DNA from: Gavia stellata
Taxonomy: Eukaryota; Chordata; Aves; Gaviiformes; Gaviidae
Assembly: GCF_030936135.1 (NCBI RefSeq)
Contig: NC_082620.1
Span: 1,612,001-1,676,000, forward strand
Length of the DNA stretch: 64,000 nucleotides
Direction: 5' to 3'
Shown here in pieces: positions 26,001 to 47,634 of the stretch. Under the pieces are notes generated by a model, which was not told where the DNA came from, did not search any database, and saw only the letters and a program-made list of their open reading frames with translations. Each line of letters starts with the position of its first letter. Within the stretch, counting starts at the first letter, position 1. Position numbers and translations under genes: made by a program.

Positions 26001-29000
26001 TGCCTTGGAGGGCGATCCTTGGGACAAGGGCGATGCTCAGGACAAGGGGATGCCCAAGTTGGGACTTGCATGGGGTGGTGCAGTGCCTTGGAGGGGGATG
26101 CTCAGGGTCGGGGTGATGCTTGGGACACAGGGGTGCTCAAATTGGGAGATGCAGGGGATGGTGCGATGCCTTGGAGGGTGATGCTCGGGATAAGGGTGAT
26201 GCTCAGGACAAGGGGGTGCCCAAGTTGAGAGGTGGAGGGGATGGGGCGATGCTCGGGACAAGGGTGATGCTCGGGACAAGGGGATGCCCAAGTTGGGACT
26301 TGCATGGGGTGGTGCAGCGCCTTGGAGGGCGATGCTCAGGGTTGGGGTGATGCTTGGAACAAGGGGATGCTCAAATTGGGAGATGCAGGGGATGGTGTGA
26401 TGCCTTGGAGAGTTACGCTCAGGATAAGGGTGATGCTCAAGAGATACATGGGATGGTGTGATGCCTTGGAGAGTTACGCTCAGGATCGGGCTGATGCTTG
26501 GGACACAAGGGTGCTCAAATTGGGAGATTCAGGGGATGGGGTGATGCCTTGGAGGGCGATGTTCGGGACAAGGGGATGTCCAAGCTGGGACTTGCATGGG
26601 GTGGTGCAGCGCCTCGGAGGGCGATGCTCAGGGTCGGGGTGATGCTTGGGACACAGGGGTGCTCAAATTGGGAGATGCAGGGGATGGTGCGATGCCTTGG
26701 AGGGTGATGCTCAGGATAAGGGTGATGCTCAGGACAAGGGAGTGCCCAAGTTGGGAGATGGAGGGGATGGTGCGATGCTTGGGACAAGGGCGATGCTCGG
26801 GACAAGGGGATGCCCAAGTTGGGACTTGCATGGGGTGGTGCAGCACCTTGGAGGGCGATGCTCAGGGTTGGGGTGATGCTTGGAACAAGGGGATGCTCAA
26901 ATTGGGAGATGCAGGGGATGGTGTGATGCCTTGGAGAGTTACGCTCAGGATCGGGCTGATGCTTGGGACACAGGGGTGCTCAAATTGGGAGATTCAGGGG
27001 ATGGGGTGATGCCTTGGAGGGCGATGTTCGGGACAAGGGGATGTCCAAGCCGGGACTTGCATGGGGTGGTGCAGTGCCTCGGAGGGCGATGCTCAGGGTT
27101 GGGGTGATGCTTGGGACACAGGGGTGCTCAAATTGGGAGATGCAGGGGATGGTGTGATGCTCAGGATAAGGGTGATGCTCGAGATATATGGGATGGTGCG
27201 ATGCCTTGGAGAGTTAAGCTCAGGGTCGGGGTGATGCTTGGGACAAGGTGTCACCCTTGGGACACAGGGATGCTCAAGTTGGGAGATGCAGGGGATGTTG
27301 TGATGCCTTGGAGGATGATGGTCTGGGTCAGGGTGATGCTCGGGACAAGGGGATGAGGTTTGGGGCTGGGAGGAATGCACTGGGTAGGATGCTCAGTACA
27401 TGAGATACGAGAGGAGCTTGGGAAGGGGCCATGCCTTAGATAGGGATGCTGGGGGACAGCGGGGATGTTTGGGGTGGCAATGCTCAGGGTGGGGGCTGCC
27501 CTGATGGGGTGATGCCTGGGAGGGGGTGCCCGAGGTGGGGGGGAGTGCTCAGGGATGGGGGGAATGCCTGGGCTGGGGATGGCTTGGAGCAGGATGCTTG
27601 GGACGGGGGCTGGCTCAGGATGGGGTGATGCTCGGGGCGATGCCGGGGATGGGGCGATGCTCGGGGCCAGGGCGATGCCCCTGGGGGGGTGACACCAGCT
27701 CCTTCTCCCCTCTCCCACAGCTTGAAGCGTGCCAGCGAGGAGAAGGAGCAGCGGCTGGCGCTGGTGGAGGACGGGCGGGCAGCGGCCGACCGGGAGGTGA
27801 AAGAGCTGCGGGCAACCCTGCGGGAGCTGGAGCGCGCCCGCCTCGATGCCCGCCGCGAGCTGCAGGAGCTGCGCCGGCAGGTGAGGAGGAGGAGGAGGAT
27901 GACGGGGACTCCCCCACCCATTTGGGGTGCCCCCAAGCCGCCGCCGTCTCCTCCTTGGGCAGGTGAAGGACCTGGACAGCGAGAACAGCAAGAGGAGCAA
28001 GGAGGTGGGCGAGCTGCAGGCGCGCATGGCCCTGGAGGAGCAGCGGGAGGAGGAGAGCCGCCGCGAAGCCTTCGGCCTCAGGCAGAAGGTGGCGGAGAGC
28101 GAGGCCGGCACGGAGGCCGCCAGGAAGGAGGTGGGGGGGTCCCTGAGCGTCCCCAGTGCCCCGTTGCTTGGTGTCCCGCATCCCAAAGTGTGCCCGTCAC
28201 CCCACAGCTTGGTACCCTGCCATACCCAGATGTCCCCATCCCTTCACCCCATAGCTCGGTGCCTGCTGTCCCCAAGCATCTCCATCGCCCCATAAGTGGT
28301 ATCCTCTGTCCCTGGGTGTCCCTGCTACTCCGTTGCTTGATGCCATGTCCCTGGGTGTCCCCGTCACCCCACCGCTCAGTCCCCTATGTCCCCATCGCCC
28401 TTTGCTCTCTGCCCTGCATCCCTGGGGGTCCCTTGCACCCCCATTGCCCCTTGCTCTGAGCCTGGTGTCCCTGGCTGTCCCCACCACCCCATCCCCTTGC
28501 ATCCTTGGGAGTCCTCATCACCCTGTTGCTCCAGCCCTTCCATCCCCATCACCCCATTGCTCCATCCCCTGCATCCCTGGGGGTCCCCCATACCCCATTG
28601 CTCCATCCCTGGGAGTCCCCCATCATCCTATTGCTCCATCCCCTGCATCCCTGGGGGGGTCCCCCATCATCCTGTTGCTGTGTTCCCTGCATCCCTGGGG
28701 TCCCCCATACCCCACTGTTCCATCCCTGGGGCTCCCACATATCCCATTACTCCATCCCTTGCATCCATGGGGGTCCCCAATACCCCATTGCTCCCTTCCC
28801 TGCATCCCCATCACCCCATTGCTCCGTCTCTTGCATCCCTGGGGGTCACCCATACCCATCGCTCCCTCTCTCGCATCTCCATCACCCTGTGCTCCATCCC
28901 TTGCACCCCATCACCCATCCCTCCACACCCTGCACCCCACCTCTCCCCATCACCCCCTTTCTGCTCCTTCCCCAGCTCCAGCACCTGCAGCGGCGGCTGT

Positions 29001-32000
29001 CGGAGGCGGAGGGCGAATTTCGGCAGCGGGAGAAGGACCTGGCCCGCAGCTTGGAGGAGGCTCGCGGCAACGAGAAGAAGCTGCTGGCCGATGCCCGCAA
29101 CCTGCAGCTGAAGGTGGAGGCGGCGCGGGGCGAAGCGGCCGAGCTGAGCCTGCGCCTGAGTGCGGCTGAGGGTCGGGCGCAGGGGCTGGAAGCCGAGCTG
29201 GCTCGCGGCGAGGCGCTGCGCCGGGCTGCCGAAACCCGCCTGGGAGGCATCCAGTCCGCCCTACGCCGTACCATGGGCATCGGCCGGGCACGGGCCGGCT
29301 CCCCGGGCAAGGGTGAGAGTCCCTGGGGACACCCGGTGCCCCGTCCCTTGCTTAGGGGAAGGGGATGCATCCTGCTGCAGTGCTCCACTCCCTGCACCCC
29401 TGGGGGTCCCCCATATCCCATCGCTCCATCCTCTGCATCCCCATCACCCCATTGCTCCATCCCTGGGGGTCCCCCATCACCCCATTGCTCCATCCCCTGC
29501 ATCCCTGGGGTTCCCCATACCCCATAGCTCCATCCCTGGGGGTCCCCCATCACCCCATTGCTCCATTCCCTGCATCCCTGGGGTCCCCCATCACCCCATT
29601 GCTCTATCCCCTGCATCCCTGGGGTTCCCCATACCCCATTGCTCCATCCCTGTGGGTCCCCCATCACCCCATTGCTCCATCCCTGGGGGTCCCCCATACC
29701 CTATTGCTCCATCCCCTGTGTCCCTGGAGGGTCCCCCCTACCGCATTGCTCCGTCTCTTACATCCCTGGGGGTCCTCCCCATCCCATGGGTGCATCCCAC
29801 TGCCGCTTGCGGTCCTCCCTTGGGTGCTGCGCCCCGTTGTCCCAATGTCACCCAGTTTGTCCCTATACAGGTGGGGGACCCGAGGGGTCGGGGAGCCCTG
29901 GCTCGTCCCCGGACCCCGATGCAGCGACCGAGCCCGAGGCGGTGCGGGCGGCCCTGCGGGATTTCCTGCGCGAGCTGCAGGACGCGCAGCGGGAACGGGT
30001 ACACCTTCCTTCCCCTTCCCTCCCCATCGTCCCCAAAAAGCCCCTTTCTCACCCCATTTTCTCGCCCCGTTTTCTTGCCGCAGGAGGAGCTGCGGGTGCA
30101 GGTGGGCAGCCTGGGCCGGCGGCTGGCGGAGGCGGAGGAGGAGCGGGACAGCGCCGATGCCCGGGCGCAGCAGCTCCAGAAGCTGGTGGCTGAGAGCGAG
30201 GAAGGTGATGGGGGTGTTTTTTGGGGTGCATCCCCTCCAGATCATGGGATTTGGGGTGATTTGTCCTGTGCTGGAGCCTCACCAGCAAGCGGGGGCTTTT
30301 GGGGAAACTGAGGCACGGGGGCGGTGGTGACAATGGTGCCTGGGACTGCAGGATGCTCGCTGGGATTTCCCCCATGCACGACCCTAAAATCCCGGTAAAA
30401 TTGGTAAAACCTCACATGCAAACCCCGTGAACCCCAGTAAAAACCCTATTCGTGCCCAGTAAACCCCGGTAAAACTGGTAAATGCCCCTATAGATTCCCT
30501 ATAAATCCCAGTAAAACTGGTAAATTCCCCGTGCAAGCCCCATAAACCCCAGTAAAACTGGTAAACCCCCCCCCATGGATCCCCTGTAAACCCAGTAAAA
30601 CTGGTAAATGCCTCACGCATCCCCTGTAATGCCCAATAAATCTGGTGAACCCCCCATGCTTGCCCTGTAAACCCCAGTAAAACTGATAAAAGACCCCTGC
30701 CTCCCCCATAAACCCCAATAAAACTGGTAAAAGCCCCTGTGCATCCCCCATAAACACTGGTAAACCCTCCTGCCTCCCCCATAAACCCCAATAAAACTGG
30801 TAAAAGCTCCTGTGCATCCCCAAAAACCCGAATAAATCTGGTGAACCCCCTGTGCTTGCCCCATAAACCGCAGTAAAACTGATAAAAGATGCCTGCATCC
30901 CCCATAAACCCCAATAGAATTGGTAAAAGCCCCCGTGCATCCCCCATAAACCCCAATAAAACTGGTAAAAGCTCCTGTGCATCCCCAAAAACCCCAATAA
31001 ATCTGGTGAACCCCCTGTGCTTGCCCCATAAACCGCAGTAAAACTGATAAAAGATGCCTGCCTCCCCCATAAACCCCAATAGAATTGGTAAAAGCCCCCG
31101 TGCATCCCCCATAAACCCCAATAAAACTGGTAAAAGCTCCTGTGCATCCCCAAAAACCCCAATAAATCTGGTGAACCCCCTGTGCTTGCTCCATAAACCA
31201 CAGTAAAACTGATAAAAGACCCCTGCCTCCCCCATAAACCCCAATAAAACTGGTAAAAGCTCCTGTGCATCCCCAAAACCCCCAATAAATCTGGTGAACC
31301 CCCGTGCTTGCCCCATAAACCGCAGTAAAACTGATAAAAGATGCCTGCATCCCCCATAAACCCCAATAGAATTGGTAAAAGCCCCTGTGCATCCCCCATA
31401 AACCCCAATAAAACTGGTAAAAGCTCCTGTGCATCCCCAAAAACCCCAATAAATCTGGTGAACCCGCTGTGCTTGCCCCATAAACCGCAGTAAAACTGAT
31501 AAAAGATGCCTGCATCCCCCATAAACCCCAATAGAATTGGTAAAAGCCCCCGTGCATCCCCCATAAACCCCAATAAAACTGGTAAAAGCTCCTGTGCATC
31601 CCCAAAAACCCCAATAAATCTGGTGAACCCCCTGTGCTTGCCCCATAAACCGCAGTAAAACTGATAAAAGATGCCTGCCTCCCCCATAAACCCCAATAGA
31701 ATTGGTAAAAGCCCCCGTGCATCCCCCATAAACCCCAATAAAACTGGTAAAAGCTCCTGTGCATCCCCAAAAACCCCAATAAATCTGGTGAACCCCCTGT
31801 GCTTGCCCCATAAACCACAGTAAAACTGATAAAAGACCCCTGCCTCCCCCATAAACCCCAATAGAATTGGTAAAAGCCCCCATGCATCCCCCATAAACCC
31901 CAATAAAACTGGTAAAAGCTCCTGTGCATCCCCAAAACCCCCAATAAATCTGGTGAACCCCCGTGCTTGCCCCATAAACCGCAGTAAAACTGATAAAAGA

Positions 32001-35000
32001 TGCCTGCATCCCCCATAAACCCCAATAGAATTGGTAAAAGCCCCCGTGCATCCCCCATAAACCCCAATAAAACTGGTAAAAGCTCCTGTGCATCCCCAAA
32101 AACCCCAATAAATCTGGTGAACCCCCTGTGCTTGCCCCATAAACCGCAGTAAAACTGATAAAAGATGCCTGCATCCCCCATAAACCCCAATAGAATTGGT
32201 AAAAGCCCCCGTGCATCCCCCATAAACCCCAATAAAACTGGTAAAAGCTCCTGTGCATCCCCAAAAACCCCAATAAATCTGGTGAACCCCCTGTGCTTGC
32301 CCCATAAACCGCAGTAAAACTGATAAAAGATGCCTGCATCCCCCATAAACCCCAATAGAATTGGTAAAAGCCCCTGTGCATCCCCCATAAACCCCAATAA
32401 AACTGGTAAAAGCTCCTGTGCATCCCCAAAAACCCCAATAAATCTGGTGAACCCCCTGTGCTTGCCCCATAAACCGCAGTAAAACTGATAAAAGATGCCT
32501 GCCTCCCCCATAAACCCCAATAGAATTGGTAAAAGCCCCCGTGCATCCCCCATAAACCCCAATAAAACTGGTAAAAGCTCCTGTGCATCCCCAAAAACCC
32601 CAATAAATCTGGTGAACCCCCTGTGCTTGCCCCATAAACCACAGTAAAACTGATAAAAGATGCCTGCCTCCCCCATAAACCCCAATAGAATTGGTAAAAG
32701 CCCCTGTGCATCCCCCATAAACCCCAATAAAACTGGTAAAAGCTCCTGTGCATCCCCAAAAACCCCAATAAATCTGGTGAACCCCCGTGCTTGCCCCATA
32801 AACCGCAGTAAAACTGATAAAAGATGCCTGCATCCCCCATAAACCCCAATAGAATTGGTAAAAGCCCCTGTGCATCCCCCATAAACCCCAATAAAACTGG
32901 TAAAAGTCCCTGTGCATCCCCCATAAACACTGGTAAACCCTCCTGTATCCCCCATAAACCCCAATAAAACTGGTAAAAGCCCCCGTGCATCCCCAAAAAC
33001 CCTAATAAAATGGGTAACCCCCCTGTGCATCCCCAAAAACCCCAATAAAATGGGTAAAGCCCCTCTGCGTCCCCCGTATCGCCCCCGTGCACGCCTCTAT
33101 AAGGTGGGTGACCATCGGGGTGGCTCCGGCAGGGCGTCGCAGCGGTGGCGGGGAGCTGAGCAGCACCCAGGCCACGCTGCTGCTGCAGGAGGAGACGCTG
33201 CGACAGGGCGAGCGGGAGCGGCGGGCGCTGCGGGAGAAGGTGACGGCGCTGGAACGGAGCCTGCACGCCGCCGAGGGCGAGCGCCGAGCCACCCAGGTGG
33301 GCATCGCCATGGGGGGGACTGGATCCTGCCCCCATCCCTGACTGCTCCGTGCCAGCCAGCCGGTGCCTTGCAGGAGAGGATGAGCGCGGCACGAGCCGGC
33401 GAGGCCAAACTGGAGGATACCAAGCGGCGGCTGGAGGTGGCGGAGAGCCGGAGCACCCGCCTGGAGCTGCAGCAGCGGGTGCTGGAGGGCGAGTTGCAAC
33501 GGGCACGGCTAGCCCTGGGCGAGCGGCAAGCAGAGGCGCGGGCGATGCAGGATCGTGCTGAGCTGCTCCAGAAACAGGTAACGGCTCAAATTCCTCTAAA
33601 ATCCCCATTGCGTGGATTTTTATTTTTGTTTTAATGATTATACTTAATTTTGCTATCGTTTTTGGGGTGTAGCTAGCGGAGAGCGAGCAGCGCGCCGGCG
33701 CTTTGCAGCTGGCGGTGGAGCGGTTGAGCGCGGCGTTGGCGGACAGTGGCTCGAAGGACGATGCGTCGAGCACAACGGCGGCGTTGGCCGATGGCACCGC
33801 GGTCCACGAGCGGCTGCTGCAGCTCCAAAGCGCCCTGGCCGCCGGCGAGCTTGACCGCCGGGCGCTCCAGGTGGGAGCGAGCACCCTAGGGTGACACCGG
33901 GGTGCTTTTGCTTGGGGGTGACCCTGGGTGTCGTTTCCTTCCCACCCATCCCAGGAGGGGCTGGATGTGGCCCGGCGGGCGCTGGCGGAGGCGCGGGAGG
34001 AGAAGGGAGCGCTGCGGGAGCAGCTGCGGGGGCTGCGGGAGGAGCAGGAGGCCCTGCAGCGCAGCAAGGAGGAGCTGGAGGCGCAGGTCCGGCAGCAGCA
34101 GGAGGTGAGGGTGGGTGGGTGCACCCCACGCTGGTGGGGGGGTGGCAGTGGGGCTCCCCAAATCCGCTATTCTTTGCCCTCGGGCAGCACCCTGAGCCCT
34201 TTTGCGCCCCTCCTGGGCAGCACCCTTGGCCCCCATGCAGCTCCCCGGCATCCTTTTGCTGCCTGGCAGCCCTTTGCACCCATACAGCCCCCCCTATACC
34301 CTATTGCACCCGTACAGCCCCCCCTATACCCTATTGCACCCATACAGCCCCCCCATACCCTATTGCACCCGTACAGCCCCGCCATACCCTATTGCACCCG
34401 TACAGCCCCCCCATACCCTATTGCACCCGTACAGCCCCGCCATACCCTATTGCACCCGTACAGCCCCCCCATACCCTATTGCACCCCCATACCCTATTGC
34501 ACCCATACAGCCCCCCCCATACCCTATTGCACCCTTACAGCCCCCCCATACCCTATTGCACCCATACAGCCCCCCTACACCCTCTTGCATCCCCCAGCAC
34601 CCTGTTGCCCCCATGCAGCCTCCTTTGCCCCCCCACCTTGCATCACCTTATGGACCCCCCCAAAGCCCCAGCACCCTTTTGCCCCCCCATGCAGCATCCT
34701 TTGCCCCACCCCTTGCATCACCCTATTGCCCCCATGCAGCCTCTCTGCACCCTTTTGCCCCCCCATGAAGCCCCTTGCATCCTTCTCCCCCCCCCCCCGC
34801 CAGCACCCTATTGCCCCCATGCAGCACCCTGCACACCTTTGCCCCCCATGCAGCATCCTTTGCTCACCCCCCACCCTGCATCACCCTATAGACCCCCCAT
34901 ATAGCTCCAGCACCCCCTTGCCCCCCCTGCAGCCCCTGCCTATAGTGGGGGCCATGGCTGACCCCCCACCCCGGCGCAGGAGCTGCGGCAGCGGCAGGAG

Positions 35001-35138
35001 GAAGGTGGGGGGCTGCAGGAGCGGGTGGGCAGCCTGCAGCGCGCCCTGACCCGCGCGCAGGAGGAGAAGCGGGAGGCCGAGCGCGTCGCCCTGCGCCTCG
35101 AGAAGGACAAGAGCGCCCTGAAGAAGACCCTGGACAAG
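14063..35138 (+). CDS. CROCC: Rootletin (ciliary rootlet coiled-coil protein), both ends missing
   Basis: 31 exons join in perfect phase: 14063-14214, 15035-15220, 15305-15388, 15474-15565, 15642-15807, 16634-16740, 16826-17032, 17107-17203, 18014-18109, 18308-18454, 18539-18738, 19450-19611, 20225-20369, 21317-21685, 22919-23112, 23196-23323, 24302-24453, 24615-24716, 24793-24927, 25489-25620, 25691-25929, 27721-27880, 27963-28130, 28976-29312, 29871-29998, 30084-30204, 33133-33296, 33374-33577, 33673-33870, 33955-34104, 34980-35138. From the Met at 14080 they give 1688 residues, almost wholly heptad coiled coil. Landmarks shared with human rootletin: SLLSLQEEN near the start, AYQEGQQRQAQLVQKLQ, SFNTYFSNEHSRLL, EALRRSNEELR, RRELQELRRQ, LRLSAAEGRAQGLEAELARG, and ALRLEKDKSALKKTLDK at the end. 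Human rootletin is 2017 residues; about 70 N-terminal residues are unfound and about 165 C-terminal residues fall beyond exon 35138, in or past the gap. It forms the striated rootlet anchoring basal bodies and links centrosomes. Introns are mostly minisatellite. Confidence 0.97.
15890..16375. repeat. 130-175-bp tandem repeat, CROCC intron after exon 15642-15807
   Basis: At least three long units, each containing gagaagaatttgggggtgca or a close variant, at about 16005, 16140 and 16315. Each unit is itself made of ggatgcrgg sub-repeats. The exon on its left uses a weak GTTTGG donor. Confidence 0.85.
17215..17960. repeat. Minisatellite (gatgcatgccagggtgc family)
   Basis: About 750 bp of degenerate 30-40-bp units (gtgatgcatgccagggtgca and variants) filling the intron between CROCC exons 17107-17203 and 18014-18109. 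Multiple ATG-containing short frames are repeat artefacts. Confidence 0.9.
18165..18270. repeat. 18-bp pyrimidine tandem repeat
   Basis: Six copies of tcccctgcctcagttccc in the short intron 18110-18307 of CROCC, near its 3' end. It supplies a very long polypyrimidine tract for the downstream acceptor. Confidence 0.92.
18740..19447. repeat. Pyrimidine-rich minisatellite (tgtccgtctgtcc family)
   Basis: About 700 bp of irregular units built on gtccgtctgtccctgcrcatcc between CROCC exons 18539-18738 and 19450-19611. The strand is strongly asymmetric (C/T on the coding strand). Confidence 0.9.
19640..20215. repeat. Minisatellite (aagtgggtgctgcaa family)
   Basis: Degenerate ~30-40-bp units containing aagtgggtgctgcaaaatc and cccccc runs, filling the intron between CROCC exons 19450-19611 and 20225-20369. 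The array runs right up to the next acceptor, which is embedded in cagccagcagcag. Confidence 0.9.
20400..21262. repeat. Minisatellite with 100-147-bp higher-order unit (cagcgggtgcaacccc family)
   Basis: Basic 15-18-bp units (gcagygggtgcaacccct). A higher-order unit is marked by aggctcagcccatgcactgg at about 20738, 20855, 20958, 21068 and 21215. Lies between CROCC exons 20225-20369 and 21317-21685. Confidence 0.92.
21690..22885. repeat. Minisatellite (ggtgcatggggcaactgggagg family)
   Basis: About 1.2 kb of ~22-26-bp units (ggtgcayggggyaactgggag), with longer local duplications, filling the intron between CROCC exons 21317-21685 and 22919-23112. G-rich on the coding strand. Confidence 0.93.
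23345..24165. repeat. Composite C-rich minisatellites (ccctcaccctcgtccccatc and relatives)
   Basis: Several adjoining arrays: 27-bp cctcaccctcgtccccatccct units at 23500-23735; a ~65-bp unit with ccttaaacctccccatcc at 23740-23920; catcctcatcctcaccccca at 23920-24050; and 15-bp atcttcaaccccatcttcaa at 24075-24150. Intron between CROCC exons 23196-23323 and 24302-24453. Confidence 0.92.
24464..24602. repeat. 22-bp tandem repeat (gatgctgatttttggggtgc)
   Basis: Six nearly perfect 22-bp copies in the short intron between CROCC exons 24302-24453 and 24615-24716. High identity suggests recent expansion. Confidence 0.94.
24930..25460. repeat. Degenerate C-rich repeat (ccccattgcaagcccc family)
   Basis: Irregular repeats of ccccattgcaa(gc/tc)cccc with interspersed catgcctgggcrtcccc, intron between CROCC exons 24793-24927 and 25489-25620. 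Much more decayed than neighbouring arrays. Confidence 0.7.
25930..27700. repeat. Minisatellite with ~230-290-bp higher-order unit (gatgctcgggacaagggg family)
   Basis: Roughly 1.75 kb. Basic ~30-bp units (cgatgctcgggacaagggga) are arranged in a higher-order unit marked by gggacttgcatggggtggtg at about 26060, 26295, 26590, 26820 and 27055. Fills the intron between CROCC exons 25691-25929 and 27721-27880. The last ~300 bp are diverged. Confidence 0.93.
28140..28970. repeat. Minisatellite (ccattgctccatccctgcatccctggg family), first array
   Basis: About 830 bp of ~40-bp units built from ccattgctccatcccctgca and tccctgggggtcccccat, intron between CROCC exons 27963-28130 and 28976-29312. The same family recurs in the next intron. 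The 5' third is more diverged. Confidence 0.92.
29365..29800. repeat. Same minisatellite family, second array in the next CROCC intron
   Basis: About 430 bp of ccattgctccatccctgggg and tcccccatcaccccattgct units, clearly homologous to the array at 28140-28970. The two arrays flank the 337-nt exon 28976-29312. Intron between exons 28976-29312 and 29871-29998. Confidence 0.92.
30385..33065. repeat. 2.7-kb satellite-like array, 165-bp higher-order unit
   Basis: Basic ~33-bp units (ccccataaaccccaataaaa) are grouped in fives to a 165-bp higher-order unit, marked by cccataaaccgcagtaaaac roughly every 165 bp; about 13 copies. The central copies are nearly identical and both ends are more diverged. 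The coding strand lacks TTA, CTA and TCA almost throughout, so all three frames of the opposite strand stay open for about 800 codons or more. The opposite strand has GGGGTTTATTGGGG-like, G-quadruplex-prone runs. Lies in the intron between CROCC exons 30084-30204 and 33133-33296. Confidence 0.96.
34240..34600. repeat. 28-bp minisatellite (cccataccctattgcaccc family)
   Basis: About a dozen near-identical units of cccataccctattgcacccg plus tacagccccc, followed to 34915 by a decayed relative (atgcagcmtcctttgcccc). Intron between CROCC exons 33955-34104 and 34980-35138. Confidence 0.93.
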
Positions 35139-35459
35139 GTGAGACGGTGGGCAGCACCCTTGGGTGCCCCTGGGGCTGGCCCCGTGGGGAGCATCGCACC
35201 CAGGGGGGGGACAGGAAAAAATGCATCCGTCGTGCCAGGACTGGGCGCAAATCAAATGCAAAGCCCGAAAAACAGCTTATTTATAGCGCGTTATTATTTT
35301 TTAAGCGTAAAATATACTTTATCTATATGCTCCACTATGCATAGAGTCTATATGCATTTAAAATATATGGGGTTTTATATATTATATATGGGTTTTTATA
35401 TATTATATATGGTTTTTATATATTATATATGGTTTTTATATATATTATATGTATTTTTA
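35139..35459. repeat. CROCC intron fragment ending in AT-rich 22-bp repeat at the gap edge
   Basis: After the last visible CROCC exon the sequence turns abruptly AT-rich at about 35200. From about 35365 it is a tandem array of ~22 bp (tatataTTATATATGGTTTT type, 3-4 copies) that runs into the N gap. This is unlike any other intron of the gene here. Such AT-rich low-complexity DNA is a common cause of contig ends. Confidence 0.85.
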
Positions 35460-35659
35460 NNNNNNNNNNNNNNNNNNNNNNNNNNNNNNNNNNNNNNNNN
35501 NNNNNNNNNNNNNNNNNNNNNNNNNNNNNNNNNNNNNNNNNNNNNNNNNNNNNNNNNNNNNNNNNNNNNNNNNNNNNNNNNNNNNNNNNNNNNNNNNNNN
35601 NNNNNNNNNNNNNNNNNNNNNNNNNNNNNNNNNNNNNNNNNNNNNNNNNNNNNNNNNNN
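35460..35659. other. Assembly gap (200 N)
   Basis: Exactly 200 N, a round number usual for a gap of unknown size. On the left it interrupts a CROCC intron; on the right it cuts EPHA2 in mid-exon. Missing across it are the last CROCC exons (about 165 residues) and the EPHA2 kinase, SAM and PDZ-binding exons, which need far more than 200 bp. Confidence 0.98.
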
Positions 35660-38600
35660 TGACTTGGAGAAGTAGACGTCCTCGGTGGACTGGCGTGGCC
35701 GTGACCTCTTCCTCCTGCGGAAAAGCAGCGGTTTGCCCCCAAAAAAATCACCCCTCACCCATCTTTGGTGGTGGAAAAAATGGTATTTTGGGGTTCGTTG
35801 GGGTTTTTTGGGGGGGTTTTATCTCCATACCGCCGGAGGACGTAGAGGAGAGCAGCCAAGAGGAGGAGGACGAAGAAGACACCAGCGACGGAGCCACTGA
35901 TGACGGCGGTGGATGCCATGGCCTCGGCGCCTGCGGGGACAATTCGGGGGGGGGTTTTGGGGTGAACTGTGCACCCCCTGCACCCCCACCCCCAAATCCT
36001 ACCCCCGCCCCGTGGTCCTCACCTTCGGGCAGGGTCTCGAACTCGTGCTGGGGGCTGTAGGGGCCGTGGCCGTCCGGGGTGAGCGCCTGGACCCGCACCA
36101 CGTAGGCGGTGGCAGGGGACAGCTTGGGGAGGGTGACGGAGGTGCCCTTGCAGCGCAGCACCGAGTAGCTGTTCTCGTCCACCTGGGGGGGTGACATGGG
36201 GGGGACAAGGGTGGAGGTGACAAGGATGGAGGTGACACGGATGGAGGGGGGACGTGGATGGGGACACCGATCGAGACAGGGCTGAAGTCATGACACGGGA
36301 CGGACCTTCTTGCTGTAGGTGACCTCGTACTTCCAGACCCGACTCTGCTGCCGTGGTGGCACCGTCCAGGAGAGGACCAAGCTGGTGGCCGTCCGTCCAT
36401 CCAGGCTCACCGATGTCACCCGGGGGGGCTCTGCCGTGGGGACAGGGACGTCACAGAGGTGCCCCCGTGGTGGAGGGAAGGCGTGGGAGATGCTGGTGGC
36501 CCCTTACCTGTCTGGTTGACGCTGATGGTGGCGGTGGCCACGCTGCGGTGGTGGCTGTAGGACGACACTCCGTTCCGGGCTTCGACGGTGAAGGTGTAGT
36601 TGACATGTGGCTCCAGGTCGGTGACCGTCACCCCCGTTCCCGTCAACCCCCGGGGGGGCTGCGAATAGCGGATCCCCCCATCGCAGGGACGGCACTCCCC
36701 GCTCTCCGGCCAGCACTGCTCGCAGGTGACGCTGTAGGTGACATCCCCACGGCCACCCGGGTCGGCGGGGGGGGACCAACGTAGCTGCACCGTGGCCCCC
36801 AGCCCCACGGCCGTGACACCCTGAGGGGGCGAGGGGGGACCTGGCGGAGGCGGGGGGACGACAGAGAGCAGAGAGGGGGGTCAGGGGGAGGGACGGCCAC
36901 GCCGTGCCTCAGTTTCCCCCCCCCCAAAGGTCACTTACGGGTGCAGGGGTCGGCGGGGGGGTCGGCGGGGGCGCGGAAGAAGCCATCCTGGCAGGGGCAG
37001 GCAGCGGCGGCGGCAGGGGAGGGTAGGGTGTGGGGCGGGCAGGGCTGGCAGCTGCTCAGGGACACGGTGGCCTTGAAGGAGCCGGGGGGACAAGCTGGGG
37101 GACACACACGGATACACACAATGACGTCGGTGAGACCCCAAATCCCCCTTCCCCACCCACGGCATCCTCACCCAGGCGGGTTTTGGGGTGCATCACCCTG
37201 CCAAGCACCCAGAGTGGGGATTTTAGGGTGTTACACCTTATTTTGCAGCTTCTTCATTATTGGGACCCCCCCAGCCCGCCCCTCTCCTGGCTGAGCCCTG
37301 CCGCACTCGCTGCACTGGTGATGCTCTGGGTTAAGGATCCAGGACAGGTGGTTTCGGTGCTGCCACCTCATTCCTCCACCCCAGATTGGGGATTTTAGGG
37401 TATTTTTTGCCTTATTTTGCAGCTTCGTGCCCCACAGGGGCAACAGGACCCCCCCACCCAACCCACCTCTCGCCTGGCTGAGCCCTGCCGCACTCGTTGT
37501 ACTAGTGATGCTTGAGGGTAAGGATCCAGGATGGGGAATTTTGGGGCTAACACCTCATTTCTCTGACCCAGACTGGGGATTTTAGGGTATTTCACCTTAT
37601 TTTTGCAGCTATTATTATTGGGACACCCCCGCCCAAGCCCACCACTCTGAGCCCTTACCGCACTCGCTGCACTAGTGATGCTCAAAGTTAAGGATCGGGG
37701 ATGGGGAATTTTGGAGCCAACACCTCATTTCTCCGCCCCCCTCTTCTATCCCCTGGCATGCGCTGAGCTGGTGCGTCCTCAGCCCCCCCCAATCCCCCCA
37801 ACCACAGCTCCTCACCCCCCCATCCCTATTTACCCCCTCCCCAAGCGCTACCTTGGCATCTCTCTCCCACTTTCTCGTAGCCGGCCCGGCACAGGCACTC
37901 CCCGATGGGCACCAACCACTCGCCGTCGGCGTTGCAGTGCAGCGCCGGAGCTTGGTCGGCCACCGCCTCCTCCACGCACGTCCCCCGCACCTCGGCCAAG
38001 GTCTGCGAGTCGACGCCGGCCACCGTTTCGGGGAAGCGAGCCATTCCCCGTAAAACAGCCGGGCACCTCTTGTAATAAATCCGAACGGAAAGCAATGCCA
38101 CGCAAGCTCCCAAATCCTGGAAAGCCAAGTAGAAACCTTTCCGACGGAGAGGTCCCACCGATCGCACCTCGACGTTGAGTTTAACGATCCGGGAAGCAAA
38201 ATCATCCTGAACGGTGATTTCATCCGGAGCGATGGTGTCGATCTTCTTGAATTGTCTCTTCTGGAAGTTGGTGCCGTAATCCACGTCGGATTCGGCGTAG
38301 TAGAGGTTGAAGGTCTCCTTGCAGGAGCCGCCGCCGGCGGTGGGGAAGCTGTTGCAGTCGCGGACGGTGAATTGGAGCTCGATGAAGATGCGTTGGGCCA
38401 CCCCGCGGTAGATCCAGTTGGTGCGTAGCCAGTTCTCCTGCTCGCCCTCCAGCACGTTGCACACCGAGTAGATGTAGATCAAGGAGTCGTTCAGCACGTT
38501 CTGCAGCAGGTCCCACTGCGCCCCCAAGAGAGAAACGGGGGCTATGGGGGGGGGAAACTGAGGCAGGGCAGGCGGTGCCCCTGTTCCCCGTGGATGCGCT

Positions 38601-41600
38601 TGTCCTCATCCCCATGGATGCCCCTGTCTTCATCTCCATGGGTGTCCCCATCCCCATGGGTGTCCCAGTTCCTATCTCTGTGGAGGTTCCCACCCCCGGT
38701 CCCCAGGGATGTCCCTGTCCTCATCCCCAAGGATGTCCCCGTCCTCATCAGTGTCCCCACCCCCATCGGTGCCCCCATCCTGGATGTCCTCATCCCCGTG
38801 GAGGTCCCCAACCCCATCCCCAGTCCCCAGGGATGTCCCTGTCCCCATCCCCAAGGATGTCCCCATTCCCATGGGTGTCCTTGTCCTCATCCCCAAGGAT
38901 GCCCCCATCCCCATTCCCACGGAGGTCCCCATTCCCATGGAGTTCCCCATGGATATCCCTGTTCCCATCCCCAAGGATGTCCCCGTCCCCATCGGTGTCC
39001 CCATCCCCACTGGTGCCCCCATCCTGGATGTCATCATCCCCGTGGAGGTCCCCAACCACATCCCCAGTCCCCAAGGATGTCCCTGTCCCCATGGGTGTCC
39101 CCATCCCCATGGGTGTCCTTGTCCTCATCCCCAAGGATGCTCCCATCCCCATTCCCACGGAGGTCCCCATTCCCATGGAGTTCCCCATGGATATCCCTGT
39201 TCCCATCCCCAAGGATGTCCCCATCCCCATCGGTGCCCCCATCCCCATGGATGTCCCCAATCCCATCGCCAGTCCCCAGGGATGTCCCTGTCCCCATCCC
39301 CAAGGATGTCCCTGTTCCCATGGGTGTCCCCCTCCCCATGGGTGTCCTTGTCCTCATCCCCAAGGATGCCCCCATCCCCCTTCCCATGGAGGTCCCCATC
39401 CCCATGGAGTTCCCCATAGATATCCCTGTCCCCATCCCCATGGATGCCCCCACGTATGTCCCCATTCCCACCCCCACGGATGTCCCCGTCCCCATAGATG
39501 TCCCCAAGCCCAGTGATATCCCTGTCCCCATGGATGTCCCCATCCCCACGGATGTCCCCATTCCCGGTGCGGGCTCTCGGGGCGGTGCTGGCCGGGGGGC
39601 GGACGCCCGGGTCCCCGGGTGCTCACCCCTTTGCCATAGGGCTGGGTGAGCCAGCCCAGCTCTCCCTGCGCCTTGGCGAAGTCCAGCAGGACCACTGTGG
39701 GGAGAGAGGGGATGTTAGTGGGAGATGCCACCAGGACCCACGGATGGCCCCAGGGCACGCAGGTGCCACCAATACATCCAGATCCCTCTTGGATCTGCGG
39801 ATGTCCCTGGGACCCATGGATGTCCCTCAGGACCCACAGATGTCCCCCAGGATCCATGGATGCCCCTCAGGACCCACGGATGCCCCTCCGGACCCACGGA
39901 TGCCCCCCAGGATCTGTGGATGTCCCTGGGACCCATGGATGTCCCCCAGGATCCGTGGATGCCCCTCAGGACCCACGGATGCCCCTCCGGATCCATGGAT
40001 GCCCCTCCGGACCCACGGATGCCCCTGGGACTCATGGATGTCCCCCAGGATCCACAGATGCCCCTGGGGCCCCTCATGTCCCTCAGGACCCACGGATGCC
40101 CCCCAGGACCCGTGGATGTCCCTCAGGACCCATGGATGTCCCCCTGGATCCACGGATGTCCCCCCGGATCCACGGATGTCTCTGGGACCCATGGATGTCC
40201 CCCAGGATCCATAGGTGTCTTTGGGACCAATGGATGCCCCCCAGGACCCACGGATGCCCCTGGGACCCACGGATGACCCCCCGGATCCACGGATGACCCC
40301 CAGGACCCACGGATGCAGCTGGGACCCAGAGATGCCCCCAGGATCCATGGATGTCCTCGGGACCCACGGATGACCCGAGGACCTGGGACCCACGGATATC
40401 CCCAGGACACGTAGAAACCCCAGGACCCACAGATGCACCCAGTCCCCACAGACGTCCCCATAACCCACGGATGTCCCCAGGACCTGCAAACACCCCTGGG
40501 ACCCACAGATGCTCCCAGTCTCATCAGATTCCCCTGGGACCCCCACGAGAACACCCCCAGGGACCCCCCCAAAAAGAGGGGAAACCGAGGCAGAGCTCGG
40601 CACCGTGCCGAGGCCGGGCAGACCTGCCATGGCATGCCGGCCGCTCTGGCGAGGGCGGTGGCCAGATCCAGCGCCCGGGAGAGGAAGAGGAGGCCGCCGA
40701 GGGCCGGGAGGGAAGTGCTGACGGGTGGCCCCCCCCTTGGTGAATCACCCCCCAGGAATGCACCCGGACGCCTGGGTTCATGCTGGCTGCTGGCGGGACG
40801 GGTCCCAATGGGGTGGGGGAGTTTCGGGGACGGATGCCCCCCCGCCGGCCAACCTCATCTGCTGAGAACGGGCGAGCTCATGACATGCCGCAAGAGGGTA
40901 AAGTCTGGGGGGGAACCCCAAAACCCAGTTGGGGGGACACACGTGGCTCTGTCGTTGTCCCCCCTCCCCGTGCCCGGGGTCAGGAAGGATGCCGGAGCGG
41001 ATATCCCAGCTTTCCTGCGGCTGGAAATCCCCCCGCATGCCTCCGGAGAGCGGAAAGCCGGCGGGGAGGCTGGCGCATGAGCTGAGTTGCTGGGTTCTCT
41101 GCAGGGTGTCCCCCCGCCACGTCCCCCCCGAGGCTGTGCCGGGGGTGAGTCAGGGGAGAAACCCAGGGCTGCGGCTGTTGAGTCAAGGGGTGCAGCACCT
41201 AAGGGTGCACCCACGCCCAGGGCCACCGGCGCCGTTGGCACCCCCGGTGCCATCACCATCTGCACCCCCTCTGCCACTGCCATCACCATCAGCACCGCCG
41301 CCACCAGCTCCATTGCCATCATCAGCACCGCCACCACCTCCACCGCCACCATCATCTGCAGCCCCCGCACCACCATCACCTCCCCTGTCCGCGTCTGCAT
41401 CGCCGGCCCCACTGCCGGCCCCACTGCCGGCCCCACCGCCGGCTGCAGCCCCATTGCCATCGGCACCACCATCCCCACGACCATCTGCAGCCCCGGCACC
41501 ACTGCTGTCACCGTCCCTGTCTGCATCGGCACTGCTGTTGCCATCGCCATCATCACCATCATCGCCATCGCCACCACTGCACGTCTGCATCCCTGTCCCA

Positions 41601-43609
41601 TCCCCAGCTGCATCCTTGTCCCCGTCCCTGTCCTGTCCCCATCCCATCTCAGCCCCAATCCACATCTCAATCCCAATCCCCATCCCCATCGCTATCGCTA
41701 TCCCCATCCCAAGCTTGATCTGAATCCCAATCCCAAAATTAATCCCCACCCCAATCCCATTCCTTTCCATTCCCATCCCAATCCAAATCCCAATCTGAAT
41801 CCCAATCCCATCCCCTCCCATTCCCATCCCAATCCAGATCCCATCCGCTCCCATTCCAACCCCCATCCCAATCTGAATCTCAATCCCAATCCCATCCCAA
41901 TCTGAATCCCAATCCCAAAATGAATCCTCATCCCAATCCCAGATCCCAGTCTGAATCCCAGTCCCAAAACGAATCCCAATCCCAAAATTAATCCCAATCC
42001 CAAAATGAATCCCAGTCTGAATCCCAGTCCCCAAATCCCAATCTGAATCCCCATCCCAATCCCAAATCCCACTCTGAATCCCAGTCCCCAAATGAATCCC
42101 CATCCCAATCCCAAAATGAATCCCCGTCCCAATCCCTTCCCCTCCCACCCCCATCCCAATCCGAATCCAAATCCCAATCTGAATCTTAATCCCATCCCCA
42201 TCCCAATCTGAATCCCATCCCATTCCCCCCCTCCTTGTCCCCCGCTTCCCGGACACCCCAAACCTCGGCGCAGGCGCTGCAGGATCCGTCCGGGACACCC
42301 AGCACCCCCCAACCTCCCCATCCCACCGGATTTCGCCCTCTCCAAGCGATGGGAAGCACCCCCCCCCAACCCCCCCCCAAATCCCGCTGCTCTCCCAACA
42401 CTTTCCCCTATTTTGCACTTTTTTAACCCAAAAAGCCCAATATCCCCAAGGATCCCTCCTGGGAATCGGCACTTTGGGAACGCGCCCCAAATCCCGCAGC
42501 CGCGTCGGGGGGCGGTTGGGGGTCCCCGCCATGGGGTCGCCCCCCTCCGCCTTCCCCCCCAGCACTTCAAAAACCTCATTTGAGGGTTTTTCACCCCATT
42601 TTTATTGGGGGGGGGCGGATTTTCCATCCCAAAGCACCCCCCAGCCTCCGATTTCTTTGCGTTGCGGGCCGGATCCGTCCGTCTTTCCCTCGAGAAGCGA
42701 CGGATAAACCCTTCGGACAGACTTTTTAGAAACCTCAATTTTTTAAAAAATTAAATATATATGAAAAAAAGTGACTTTTCCCTTTTTTTACCCCAAACCC
42801 CCCAATCTGAGCCCAAAAAGCAGCCGGGGAATCGTTGCGAAGCGGAGGCCGGGACGCTGCTTGTTTTTTTCCCAGCACTTTTTGGGGTTTTCCTGACATT
42901 GTTTTCCAGTTCTCCGAGCCGGATCCCGCCCGGCCCATCGCCGGCCATGGGAAACACTCCGTTTTAGGGTGATTTCCCCCTTTTTTGGGTTTTTTTTTTT
43001 TTTTTCTTTTTCAACCCCCCCCCACCCCACCCACTGGGTCAGACCCTTTTTGGGGGGCACCCAGCAGGATCCCGCCCCGGAGCGGGACGCTCTGCGTGGG
43101 AAAAGTTGCCCAAAATTCTTGATTTTCCCCCTATTTTAGCTTTTTCCCCCTTTTTTGAGCTCCCCCCCCCATTTTAACACCCTTTCCCCCCCATTTTAAC
43201 CCTTCCCCCCCCGTTTAAACCCTTTTCCTCCCCATTTTAACCCTTTCCCCCCCCATTTTAACCCTTTCCCCCCCCGAACGCAGCAGCTGGTGCGCCACCA
43301 CCGCACCCTATGGGCACCCCTTTTTTTTTTTGGGGGGGGTGCGCGCCACCCTCCCATCACCCTTTATTTTAGGGGGGGCTCCTCCAGCCCCCCCCCAACC
43401 TCTCAGCTCTCAAAAGTGCCCAAACTTACCCCCAAACCACCCCACCCCTTTGGGTGCGCACCCCAGCCACCCCCCCCCCCCAGCAGCACCCAATAAGTGG
43501 GTTTTGGGGTGGCCCCCCCCCCCAAAGCGCAGAGCTCACCTTCCTCAGCTGCCAGCGGGGAGAGGGCGGTGAGGAGGAGGAGGGTGAAGGCTGGGGGGGT
43601 GCCCGCCAT
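35660..43609 (-). CDS. EPHA2: Ephrin type-A receptor 2, 3' half missing into gap
   Basis: Nine exons on the minus strand: 43609-43540, 39694-39627, 38515-37852, 37094-36939, 36840-36508, 36430-36306, 36182-36023, 35930-35831, 35714-35660 (cut by the gap). Phases join without a break; 577 codons. Domains: signal peptide ([21 protein letters not shown]); ephrin-binding domain ([80 protein letters not shown]); Cys-rich/EGF-like region (CPPHTLP, GFFRAP); two fibronectin III repeats ([36 protein letters not shown]); membrane segment ([20 protein letters not shown]); basic stop-transfer and juxtamembrane EDVYFSKS with its tyrosine. It receives ephrin-A ligands at cell contacts. Kinase, SAM and tail are absent only because of the gap. 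Introns 1-3 hold minisatellites. Confidence 0.97.
37210..37740. repeat. ~175-bp tandem repeat, three copies, EPHA2 intron 3
   Basis: Three long units begin with gggattttagggtrtt at about 37216, 37388 and 37564. Each also carries tgagccctgccgcactcgct and gatgctc followed by gttaaggatccagg. Identity is high but units differ by small indels. Fills most of the intron between exons 37852 and 37094. Confidence 0.9.
38575..39570. repeat. Minisatellite (atccccatggatgtcccc family), EPHA2 intron 2
   Basis: About 1 kb of 18-24-bp units (atccccaaggatgtccc). A ~250-bp higher-order duplication is marked by catccccgtggaggtcccca at about 38787 and 39036. Occupies nearly all of the intron between exons 39627 and 38515. 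Confidence 0.93.
39720..40570. repeat. Minisatellite (ggacccacggatgcccc family), EPHA2 intron 1
   Basis: About 850 bp of 18-bp units (ggacccacggatgcccct, ggatccatggatgtcccc). Related in sequence (ccatggatgtcccc) to the array in intron 2, suggesting spread across exon 39627-39694 or common origin. Confidence 0.93.
41220..41620. repeat. Imperfect trinucleotide-rich block (accatc/gccacc), EPHA2 intron 1
   Basis: About 400 bp rich in caccatc, gccgcc and accacc triplets with a short gccggccccact duplication at 41405-41430. The triplet period keeps frames open on both strands; no gene is inferred. Confidence 0.8.
41640..42235. repeat. Short-period minisatellite (atcccaatcccaaaatga), EPHA2 intron 1
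   Basis: About 600 bp of 6-18-bp units (aatcccaatcccaaaatgaatcc). Six-base atccca/atcccc steps are combined into longer imperfect repeats. Confidence 0.92.
43165..43285. repeat. Short tandem repeat (ccccattttaaccctttcc)
   Basis: Five to six copies of a ~20-bp unit (ccccattttaaccctttcc) in EPHA2 intron 1, within a longer C/T-rich stretch. Confidence 0.88.
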
Positions 43610-44340
43610 AGCCGGGGGGGCTGGGGGGGGCCCGGGGTGCACCCCACGACCGGCTAGCACCCAGCGCTGTGTGGGCGTGTGGGGCTGAGCACCCCGCTCC
43701 TGTTCATTCATGCCCCGAGTGATGTCACCCGGCCACGCCCGCTCTTAAAGAGACAGGAGCTGCTCCCAGTACCCACCAGTATGGGACTGGGAGGGCCCGA
43801 GTGTGAGGATGGGAAGTGGGCCGGGGGTGGGGGGGGGTGTGGGTGTGTGGGACACCTCCCCCCCCCCCCGGGAGCACACCCGTGGGGGGTGTGCGTGGGT
43901 CCCGATCCGTCCGTGGGTGCTGGGTGCTGGGTGCGGGTCCGTCCCGCAGCAGTGTCTCCCCCCGCACCCCCCCCCCCCCCACGAAGGGGTTAACCCCCCC
44001 CCGCCCCCTCCCCTTTCATTCATGAAGCGGCGTGGGAAGGGCGCGGGGGGCGGCAGCCAATGGCGGCAGGGGGCGGGGCCACGCGGCTACTACCGGCTCC
44101 GCCCCCCCCGCCCACCAGTTAGATAGTGGGGGGGCAGGAACTGGGGGGCAGGCTCAGGTGGGGTGCCGGAGGGCGGGCTGGTTTTGGGGGGGCGATGCCC
44201 GCCCCCCCCCCCCCCGCCCCTTTCCCGCGTCCCGAAAGAGGCCGGACCAGAAATCGGCTTTTTCCGGCCCAAAAGTAATGCCGGTTTCTGGCGGGGAGGG
44301 GGGGCCGGGCCCCTGGGGGGGCGGGATCGGGCCCAGCAGC
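43610..44340. other. EPHA2 5' flank
   Basis: CpG- and G/C-run-rich DNA with no coding exon, taken as the EPHA2 promoter and 5' UTR. ARHGEF19, which lies between EPHA2 and CPLANE2 in mammals, is not recognisable here or in the following repeat. Confidence 0.6.
44056..44080 (-). promoter_or_regulatory. EPHA2: EPHA2 promoter-proximal CCAAT and GC box
   Basis: CCAAT at 44057-44061 is followed by ggcggcagggggcggggcc, a GC box (Sp1 type). They lie about 450 bp upstream of the EPHA2 ATG in CpG-rich DNA, a usual place for core promoter elements. Motif match only; the transcription start is not visible. Confidence 0.45.
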
Positions 44341-44349
44341 CCCCCAGCA

Positions 44350-45790
44350 CCCCAAATCTTCCATCAACTGTAGCATCCCCATGATCCCGCAGCACCCCAA
44401 ATCCTGCATCATCCACAGCACCCCAAATCCTCAGCACCCCGCGGCACCCCATGATCCCCCAGCACCCCAAATCCCGCAGCACCCATAGCACCCCGTCCCT
44501 ATCACCCCATTGCACCCCAAATCCCCAGCACCCCCCAGTACCCCAAATCCTGCAGCACCCCATCCCCACAGTCTCACAGCACCCCAAATCCCCCAGCACC
44601 CCATCTCCATCACCCCCCAGCACCCCAAAAACCCCAGCACCCCATCCCCGTCACCCCCCAGCACCCCAAATCCCATGGCACCCCATCCCCAAGATCCCCC
44701 AGCACCCTAAATCCCCCAGCACTCCATCTCCATCACCCCCCAGCACCCCAAATTCTGCAGCACCCCATCCCCAAGATCTCATGGCACCCCAAATCCCCCA
44801 GCACCCCATCTCCGTCACCCCCCAGCACCCCAAAAACCCCAGCACCCCATCTCCGTCACCTCCCAGCACCCCATCCCCGCCACCTCCCAGCACGCCAAAT
44901 CCTGCAGCACCCCATCCCCACAGTCTCACAGCACCCCAAATCCCCCAGCACCCCATCTCCATCACCCCCCAGCACCCCAAAAACCCCAGCACCCCATCCC
45001 CGTCACCCCCCAGCACCCCAAATCCCATGGCACCCCATCCCCAAGATCCCCCAGCACCCTAAATCCCCCAGCACTCCATCTCCATCACCCCCCAGCACCC
45101 CAAATTCTGCAGCACCCCATCCCCAAGATCTCATGGCACCCCAAATCCCCCAGCACCCCATCTCCGTCACCTCCCAGCACCCCATCCCCGCCACCTCCCA
45201 GCACGCCAAATCCTGCAGCACCCCATCCCCAAGATCCCCCAGCACCCCAAATCCCCCAGCACCCCATCCCCGTCACCCCCCAGTACCCCAAATCCCCCAG
45301 CACCCCATCCCCAAGATCTCATGGCACCCCAAATCCCCCAGTATGCCATCCCCAAGATACCCCAGCACCCCAAATCCCCCAGGACCCCAAATCCTGCAGC
45401 ACCCCATCCCCAAGATCCCCCAGCACCCCAAATCCCCCAGCACCCCATCCCCGTCACCCCTCAGCACCCCAAATCCTGCAGCACCCCATCCCCAAGATCC
45501 CCCAGCACCCCAAATCCCCCAGCACCCCATCCCCAAGATCCCCCAGCACCCCAAATCCCCCAGCACCCTCATCCCCATCACCCCCCAGCACCCCAAATCC
45601 TGCAGCACCCCATCCCCAAGATCCCCCAGCACCCCAAATCCCCCAGCACCCCATCCCCGTCACCCCCCAGCACCCCAAATCCTGCAGCACCCCATCCCCA
45701 AGATCTCATGGCACCCCAAATCCCCCAGCACCCCATCTCTGTCACCCCCCCCGCACCCCCCACCCCAGCACCCCAAAGCCCCCAGCACCC
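44350..45790. repeat. Minisatellite (cagcaccccaaatccccc family), EPHA2-CPLANE2 spacer
   Basis: About 1.4 kb of ~25-27-bp units (cagcaccccaaatcccccag; caccccatccccaagatcc), with large internal duplications: 44620-44790 and 44980-45150 are nearly identical. It fills almost the whole spacer between the EPHA2 promoter and the CPLANE2 stop. Confidence 0.95.
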
Positions 45791-45916
45791 CAAATCGGAC
45801 GAGTCAGGGCACCCAAGGCTCTTTTTGGTGGAGAAACATGGATTTTGGTCAAAAAGCACCTTTTCCCCTCCCATTCCCCCCCAACCCCCCCAAACCCGCC
45901 CCGCAAGATGGGGGGT

Positions 45917-47516
45917 TCAGGCGGGGGGGGACCCCTCGCCCCCCGGGGCGACGCCGGCGGCGATTTGGTCCCGCCGCCAGAGCCTCTCGACCAGGGCGTC
46001 GAGGAGGGGGGCGACGCGGGCCAGCCCCCCGCGCCCCGGCCCGGCCCCCGGCCGGCTGCCCACCCGCAGCACCGGCACCCCCCAGGCCCCCTCGAAGGCC
46101 GTCACGTCCCCCTCCGTCACGTCCGCCTGCGGGGACAGGTCGAATCTGGGGCGGGTGTTGGGGGGGGGGCACGTGGTCAAGGGAGACAGCAACACCCTGA
46201 AAAATCCCCCCACAACAACCCCTAAAAATAAGCGGGTGCTGCCAATCCATCGGTGTAACGAAATGTGCACGTTCTCAGCCTACCAAGGTACCGAGAGGTG
46301 CAAAATACGGGGGTGCAAACCCACTTGGGGGGGGATGACACACAGTCAAAGGAGACACCAACACCCCAAAAAATCCCCCCAGGGGGCAAACCCCTATAAA
46401 AATAGGTGGAAGCTGCGATTCCATTCATGTAACAAAGTGTGTGTGTTTTCAGCCCGCCAAGGTATTGAGTGGTGTGAAATATGGGGGTGCAAACCCACTT
46501 TGGGGGGGACATACAAGGGAGACACCAACAGCCCAAAAAATCCCCCCGGAGGGGGCAAAACCCCCTAAAAAAAAAGGTGGGAGCTGTGATTCCACTGGTG
46601 TAATGAGGTGTGCGCGTTCTCAGCCTACTGAGATGCCAAGTGGTGGGAAATATGGGGGTGCCAACCTGTTTATGGGGGGATGCGCCCTCCTCCCGCCCCT
46701 CCGGCCCACGCTCTGAGAAGGATACTTGGTGCCGACGACCACCCTAACGAGGTTTTCTTCGTCAGGGCCGACCACCCGGCTCATCTGCGCCGGCAGCTCC
46801 TCGAAGGACGAGCGGTCGGTGAAGGAGAAGAGGAAGAGGACGGCGTCCGCTTCCTCCTTACAAGCCTGGTGGGGGGGGGGAAGAGGGGACAGCCACCGTG
46901 ATGGGGGGATCCTGTGTGTGTGTGTCCCCCAAAACTTGTCCCCCCCACCCCGACTCACGGGCAGGAGATGCTCGAATTTTTTCAGGGCTCCGTCCCCGCA
47001 ATCCCAAAAGCGGAGCTGGAAGATGACGGGGCGGCCGCTGGCCCGCGGCTTGGCCGGCCAGTAGACGGTGGTGGCCTCTATGCCTGGGGGGGACACCACA
47101 CCCCCCCCCACGGTCACCCCCAGGGGACATCGGGGGTGCTGTGTGTGTGTGTCCCCCCTGTTCCGTGACATACCCAGGGTCTCGTGGTGGACGGGGGGCA
47201 CGGGGGTCCCCGCCAGCGTGGCCACCAAGGCCGTCTTGCCGACGCCGCTCTTGCCGGAGAGGAAGAGTTTGTAGGTGACGGTGGGGGCGGCCAAGGTGGG
47301 GGGCAGCACCGGGCGCTCCAGCAGACCTGGTGGGGGGATAGGTGTGTGTGTGAGGGTTTTTTTGGGGTGCTGGCACCCCATTTTTTTTTTTGGGGGGGTG
47401 TGGGTCTCACCGAACACTCTCCGCTGGTTCTTCTGGAGGATGGAGTCCAGGTAGGGGCGGCCGGCGGGGGAGAGGAGCCAGCCCGGCTCCAGCACCGAGC
47501 CCCCCCGCGCCGCCAT
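45917..47516 (-). CDS. CPLANE2: CPLANE2 (REM2- and Rab-like small GTPase 1)
   Basis: Five exons on the minus strand: 47516-47411, 47326-47174, 47083-46959, 46865-46726, 46145-45917 (TGA 45919-45917). They join in phase to 250 residues (human 258). GTPase motifs: P-loop SGKSGVGKTAL; G3-like FWDCGDGALKKFEHLL (Cys where most have Ala/Thr); FLFSFTDRSSFEELP; G4 GTKFD across the last junction. The start MAARGGSVLEPGW is followed by YLDSILQKNQRRVFGLLERP, matching the human N-terminal region. The protein is a CPLANE (ciliogenesis and planar polarity effector) member that works with Fuzzy and Inturned at the basal body to recruit intraflagellar transport proteins. The fourth intron has a U12-type donor. 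Complete and apparently intact. Confidence 0.96.
46146..46725 (-). other. CPLANE2: U12-type (minor spliceosome) intron of CPLANE2
   Basis: Read on the minus strand the donor is GTATCCTTCT (46725-46716), a perfect match to the U12 GT-AG donor consensus. It is the only donor in the window of this kind. A branch-site candidate TCCCTTGAC (46184-46176) lies about 31 nt before the CAG acceptor, a little farther than usual. The splice joins ...GTK to FDL within the G4 motif. Confidence 0.8.
46165..46682. repeat. ~170-bp tandem triplication inside the CPLANE2 U12 intron
   Basis: Three copies of about 165-175 bp begin near 46172, 46344 and 46515. Shared blocks are gggagacaccaacacccc, tctcagcctaccaaggta and atgggggtgcaaacccactt. 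Copies differ by substitutions and A-run lengths. The copy nearest the acceptor contains the branch-site candidate. Confidence 0.88.
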
Positions 47517-47634
47517 GGGCCCCCCGAAACCTGGGGGTGCAGGGAAGACACCCCCCCCCCCCGCCTTCCCCCGGGGGGTCACTGCACCCCACAGCTTGGG
47601 GGAGCAGGGAGTCCCCTTCTGACCCCGCACCCCG

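Follow-up and report, generated by a model that had tools for sequence, protein, structure and literature searches.

A probable false haplotypic duplication of the EPHA2-CROCC block around an assembly gap

False haplotypic duplication is an already known class of assembly artefact. One form of it, the 'flanking contigs' type of heterotype duplication, is set out in the part of Rhie et al. 2021 (PMC8081667) that we draw on: the 5′ side belongs to one haplotype and the 3′ side to the other. The same part gives heterozygosities of 0.1-1.1% for its genomes, with the exception of the zebra finch (1.6%). According to the excerpt of Ko et al. 2022 (PMC9516828) used here, false duplications are most often separated by a gap, and the excerpt of Guan et al. 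2020 on purge_dups (PMC7203741) describes overlaps between homologous chromosomes that are retained among primary contigs.

Here we analyse a locus in which the genes on the two sides of a gap appear in a permuted order. We consider it very probable (roughly nine chances in ten) that this locus is a false duplication of the haplotypic, or 'heterotype', kind, with two parental versions of the same block placed end to end. A search of the literature for a duplication involving EPHA2, CROCC and FBXO42 together found none.

The window, its gap and its genes

The window is the whole stretch of DNA analysed, 64,000 nucleotides long (C27:1612001-1676000), from an assembly of 1.32 Gb in 1,185 contigs. 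Flanks of 100 kb were added on either side, and the right one was then extended by 20 kb, for a total of 284 kb (C27 1512001-1796000). Coordinate 0 is C27 1612000, and negative values, as well as values above 64000, are window coordinates extended beyond the edges. A single N run of 200 bases (35460-35659) separates contig A, on the left, from contig B, on the right, and there is no other gap across the 284 kb. A literature search for a published link between gaps of 200 N and a particular scaffolder led to a paper that reports gaps of 100 N. Gene identities were obtained through Pfam and PDB sequence searches with one exon per gene, yielding the following features (copy 1 belongs to contig A and copy 2 to contig B).

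1..35459, + strand: right end of contig A; copy 1 of the overlap begins outside the window at -75070 (C27 1536930) and ends at 35459 (C27 1647459)
2852..3220, + strand: SZRD1 exon (assumed name), copy 1, SUZ domain (Pfam); copy 2 at 113553
7820..8233, + strand: frame with the NECAP2 exon, copy 1, NECAP family (Pfam) and PDB; copy 2 at 118548
14089..35139, + strand: copy 1 of CROCC, cut short by the gap; the last exon upstream of the gap is at about 34977-35138
35460..35659, no strand: gap of 200 N, the sole N run in C27 1512001-1796000
35660..64000, + strand: left end of contig B; copy 2 of the overlap begins at 35660 and ends outside the window, at about 145950 (C27 about 1757950)
35660..38518, - strand: copy 2 of EPHA2, cut short by the gap and lacking the kinase exons
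46834..47004 (about), - strand: piece of a CPLANE2 exon in copy 2; its copy 1 counterpart is at -64000..-63830
51593..51871, - strand: copy 2 of the C-terminal exon of FBXO42, matching PDB 9o04 'F-box only protein 42' at E 1.4e-61; copy 1 at -59097

We take the SUZ-domain exon at 2852-3220 to be SZRD1 in view of its position. The frame at 7820-8233 obtained nearly equal PDB scores for NECAP2 and NECAP1, and the paralogue was assigned from position, while a Rootletin domain at 15023-15418 (+), in an exon that is found again at 125760, supports CROCC at the level of the family. Within these matched families the names NECAP2 and CROCC are our assumption, made from position. The EPHA2 ligand-binding domain lies at 38069-38518 (-), and its 14 best PDB matches are chains of EPHA2, two of which carry just 'Ephrin receptor' or a capitalised name as their label. 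CPLANE2 was identified with its contig A copy, which matched PDB 7q3e, 'Ciliogenesis and planar polarity effector 2'.

The window reads SZRD1, NECAP2 and CROCC (+), 200 N, and then EPHA2, CPLANE2 and FBXO42 (-), which is the order, and these are the strands, that the original prediction had given, now with Pfam and PDB support. It had also held that both genes at the gap are cut, and this is indeed the case: CROCC is interrupted at 35459, in an AT-rich microsatellite within an intron, and EPHA2 opens mid-gene at 35660. The anomaly in gene order was correctly placed at the N gap, given that CROCC and EPHA2 are neighbours only across the N run, and FBXO42 does leave the window at the right edge, its F-box exon in contig B being located by eye at 84011, past that edge, and its counterpart in contig A, also by eye, at -26675.

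Two collinear copies and their flanks

Contigs A and B both hold EPHA2, CPLANE2, FBXO42, SZRD1, NECAP2 and CROCC over ~110 kb, in identical order and orientation, and many coding-like frames are listed twice, spaced about 110.7 kb apart and with their strand unchanged. Alignment of A against B yields a direct repeat that pairs A -75070..35459 with B 35660..about 145950. When 41-mers unique in both copies are used as anchors, 85,429 out of 85,507 fall in one increasing chain, which covers -75000..35377 in A (110,377 bp) and 35730..145889 in B (110,159 bp). Both copies are on one scaffold, and the gap at 35460-35659 lies exactly between them.

The ends of the overlap coincide with the contig ends at the gap. 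Homology starts with the first base of B (35660 pairs with -75070) and reaches 35450, at most 9 bases from the end of A, in the AT-rich microsatellite that B reads through. Contig A continues past the point where B starts and into the EPHA2 kinase exons: copy 1 of EPHA2 has its ligand-binding exon at -72661..-72212 and retains kinase exons (Pfam) together with a SAM-like exon (by eye) between -79.8 and -75.1 kb. On the other side, copy 2 of CROCC runs beyond 145.6 kb into single-copy 3′ sequence. Since A reads past the start of B and B reads past the end of A, each contig supplies what the other lacks. No sequenced junction links the two copies; where copy 1 stops and copy 2 begins there is only the N run.

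Copy number across the genome was assessed with four probes. The EPHA2 ligand-binding probe has two near-identical places, C27:1539170 and 1649900, its 9 remaining matches being 66-86% identical. The CROCC exon nearest the gap in contig A also has two, C27:1646900 and 1757392, and no other match. Outside the overlap, the EPHA2 kinase exon, present in A only, has one place, its 12 remaining matches being 73-88% identical. The 3′ portion of CROCC, present in B only, likewise has one place genome-wide and no other match. The flanks are hence single copy, as judged from one probe per flank, and no third near-identical copy or alternate contig was found elsewhere in the genome with the four probes. 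A second close, direct pair of near-identical copies was looked for by eye in 150 scored homeodomain matches of 317 candidates, without a clear case, in a survey where HOX clusters make bit scores difficult to judge.

To the left of EPHA2 are a ZBTB17 BTB exon, an HSP20-domain exon that we read as HSPB7, and an exon of a CLCNK-type chloride channel, and to the right of CROCC is ATP13A2 (31-residue match). Dropping one copy gives the order ZBTB17, HSPB7, CLCNK, EPHA2, CPLANE2, FBXO42, SZRD1, NECAP2, CROCC, ATP13A2, which we take to be that of mammals, where the interval presumably contains further genes, for example FAM131C, ARHGEF19, SPATA21 and MFAP2. FBXO42 is followed by SZRD1, gap-free, in contig A (-26675, 2852) and in contig B (84011, 113553). 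The ancestral order is not lost: FBXO42-SZRD1 is present twice, and the flanks are collinear with the mammalian order. In any window that crosses the seam of a head-to-tail repeat, the repeated block appears in cyclically permuted order, and the order looks permuted here because the window takes in the last part of copy 1 and the first part of copy 2. Nothing is rearranged, and contigs A and B are in the correct order.

Two repeat features were noted outside the block. Past the ATP13A2 exons, on their right, a long minisatellite at C27 1790366-1792023 (window 178366-180023) contains long, overlapping repetitive frames on both strands. Telomere-repeat arrays were found, among the first places listed, at C14:15004-15419, near the start of C14, and at C1:1256295-1256458, which is internal and might mark either a scaffold join or an interstitial telomere.

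Divergence between the copies

The main alignment, of 84,040 columns, contains 413 SNPs (0.49%; 305 transitions against 108 transversions) as well as 65 indels, of which 39 are of 1 bp. Counted in 82 one-kb windows, SNPs number 380 (0.46%), and 6 of the 82 windows have none. In 15 exon pieces totalling 3,042 bp, which were picked by eye and do not amount to full gene models, there are 9 mismatches and no indel. A SNP divergence of 0.46-0.49% is at the level of haplotypes, the yardstick being the heterozygosity of other genomes and not that of this individual. Indeed, the range of 0.1-1.1% in the part of PMC8081667 used here brackets the 0.5% divergence, and this fits the copies being haplotypes.

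SNP density is patchy, with an index of dispersion of 2.07 (0 of 20,000 Poisson simulations were as high) and a lag-1 autocorrelation of 0.24 (57 of 5,000 permutations were as high). Such patchiness is expected of alleles with recombination, but it could also stem from gene conversion between paralogues or from variation in mutation rate.

Length differences of at least 15 bp number 33, and 23 of these overlap listed tandem arrays (minisatellites). The largest length step, 1,317 bp, falls in an array of 165-bp units in a CROCC intron. This minisatellite (30538-33074) comprises about 14 copies with 93% matches, and according to the anchor steps its contig B version is shorter by about 1.1 kb. 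Because 165 is divisible by 3, the array gives rise to spurious antisense frames of great length (up to 1260 aa). GC-rich minisatellites are also abundant at 20395-29752, in CROCC introns, and at 44512-49318, between EPHA2 and FBXO42, and several of them differ in length between the copies. If the copies are alleles, these minisatellites would be possible length-polymorphic markers.

A 22-bp tandem duplication was further observed in contig B (C27 about 1724.0 kb; the B copy of 3199-3220), where it repeats the end of the SZRD1 exon and its donor. As a consequence B has two SZRD1 splice donors in tandem and A has one, the exon piece itself being unaltered. This is possibly a splice-site polymorphism.

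Origin of the duplicated block

The original prediction had attributed the gene order either to two contigs joined in the wrong order or to a real rearrangement that placed CROCC and EPHA2 tail to tail. Inside the window alone, exchanging the halves does give what we take to be the mammalian order, as would be expected if the true order were B then A. Nevertheless, FBXO42-SZRD1 is contiguous, without a gap, within A and within B, and ZBTB17, HSPB7 and CLCNK (left of A) and ATP13A2 (right of B) occupy their mammalian places only if A precedes B, and would be displaced by swapping the halves. The wrong-order join was hence rejected as extremely improbable, and it is only the more general idea of an assembly error that survives. 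The prediction had also proposed to look for FBXO42 and SZRD1 past the window ends: further copies of both are found there, but their adjacency is not broken, being gap-free in both contigs. The rearrangement, in which CROCC and EPHA2 would have become neighbours in this lineage, draws on the gene order of the window. It was rejected too, and is hardly credible, since the order supposed to be lost is found in the flanks, with the EPHA2-to-CROCC block standing twice head to tail and the CLCNK-EPHA2, FBXO42-SZRD1 and CROCC-ATP13A2 successions all present, and since the new adjacency exists solely across N.

The same geometry would result from a true tandem duplication whose junction is hidden by the gap. 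A duplication of this kind would be a real and recent segmental one of ~110 kb, from EPHA2 to CROCC and about 0.5% diverged, in which FBXO42, SZRD1, NECAP2 and CPLANE2 are doubled and a 3′-truncated CROCC (copy 1) adjoins a kinase-less EPHA2 (copy 2). The collinear head-to-tail copies, their 0.46-0.49% of SNPs and the lack of indels in the 15 exon pieces agree with it, and so does the fact that false duplications were not seen to be common in the limited homeodomain survey (150 of 317 candidates). On the other hand, the single gap in 284 kb must then have hit the junction exactly, with homology flush with the contig ends; a divergence of 0.5% over 110 kb would not obviously halt an assembler only there, and the differences in minisatellite length look allelic. 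We consider such a duplication unlikely.

The reading that we favour is false haplotypic duplication, with the two copies most likely being alleles of one locus. Its most likely history is that contig A was built through one parental haplotype up to the AT-rich microsatellite in the CROCC intron, and that contig B was begun within EPHA2 from the other haplotype of a heterozygous genome that looks bird-like in its size and gene style. The overlap between A and B, of about 110 kb, would have been neither merged nor trimmed, and the scaffolder would then have set A before B, in the correct order and with a 200-N spacer, doubling the shared block head to tail. That no clear second case appeared in the homeodomain survey suggests a residual error in an otherwise purged assembly and is no support for this reading.

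If the locus is not corrected, FBXO42, SZRD1, NECAP2 and CPLANE2 would each be credited with an extra copy that does not exist, EPHA2 with a spurious version lacking its kinase and CROCC with a spurious truncated one, and an untrue break in synteny would be recorded. It also serves as a warning that findings made in windows of fixed size need to be checked beyond both edges before a rearrangement is claimed.

Among described systems, the locus resembles the 'flanking contigs' type as described in the legend of Extended Data Fig. 5a of PMC8081667, in which the left and right contigs are different haplotypes and carry tandem copies with a gap between them; at the present locus the allelic state of the copies is a probable one. 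It resembles as well the heterozygous overlap of purge_dups (PMC7203741), a collinear overlap at the ends of adjoining contigs that is left in the assembly. In the portion of that paper drawn on, purge_dups makes a call only if both copies have low read depth, whereas ours is made from the letters of the assembly. Finally, in the account of NPNT and NPNT-like in the VGP zebra finch given in the excerpt of PMC9516828, gap-separated copies are seen in which each gene copy is short of exons at one end, as are EPHA2 and CROCC at this gap, but the duplication reported here extends over about 110 kb and includes at least six genes.
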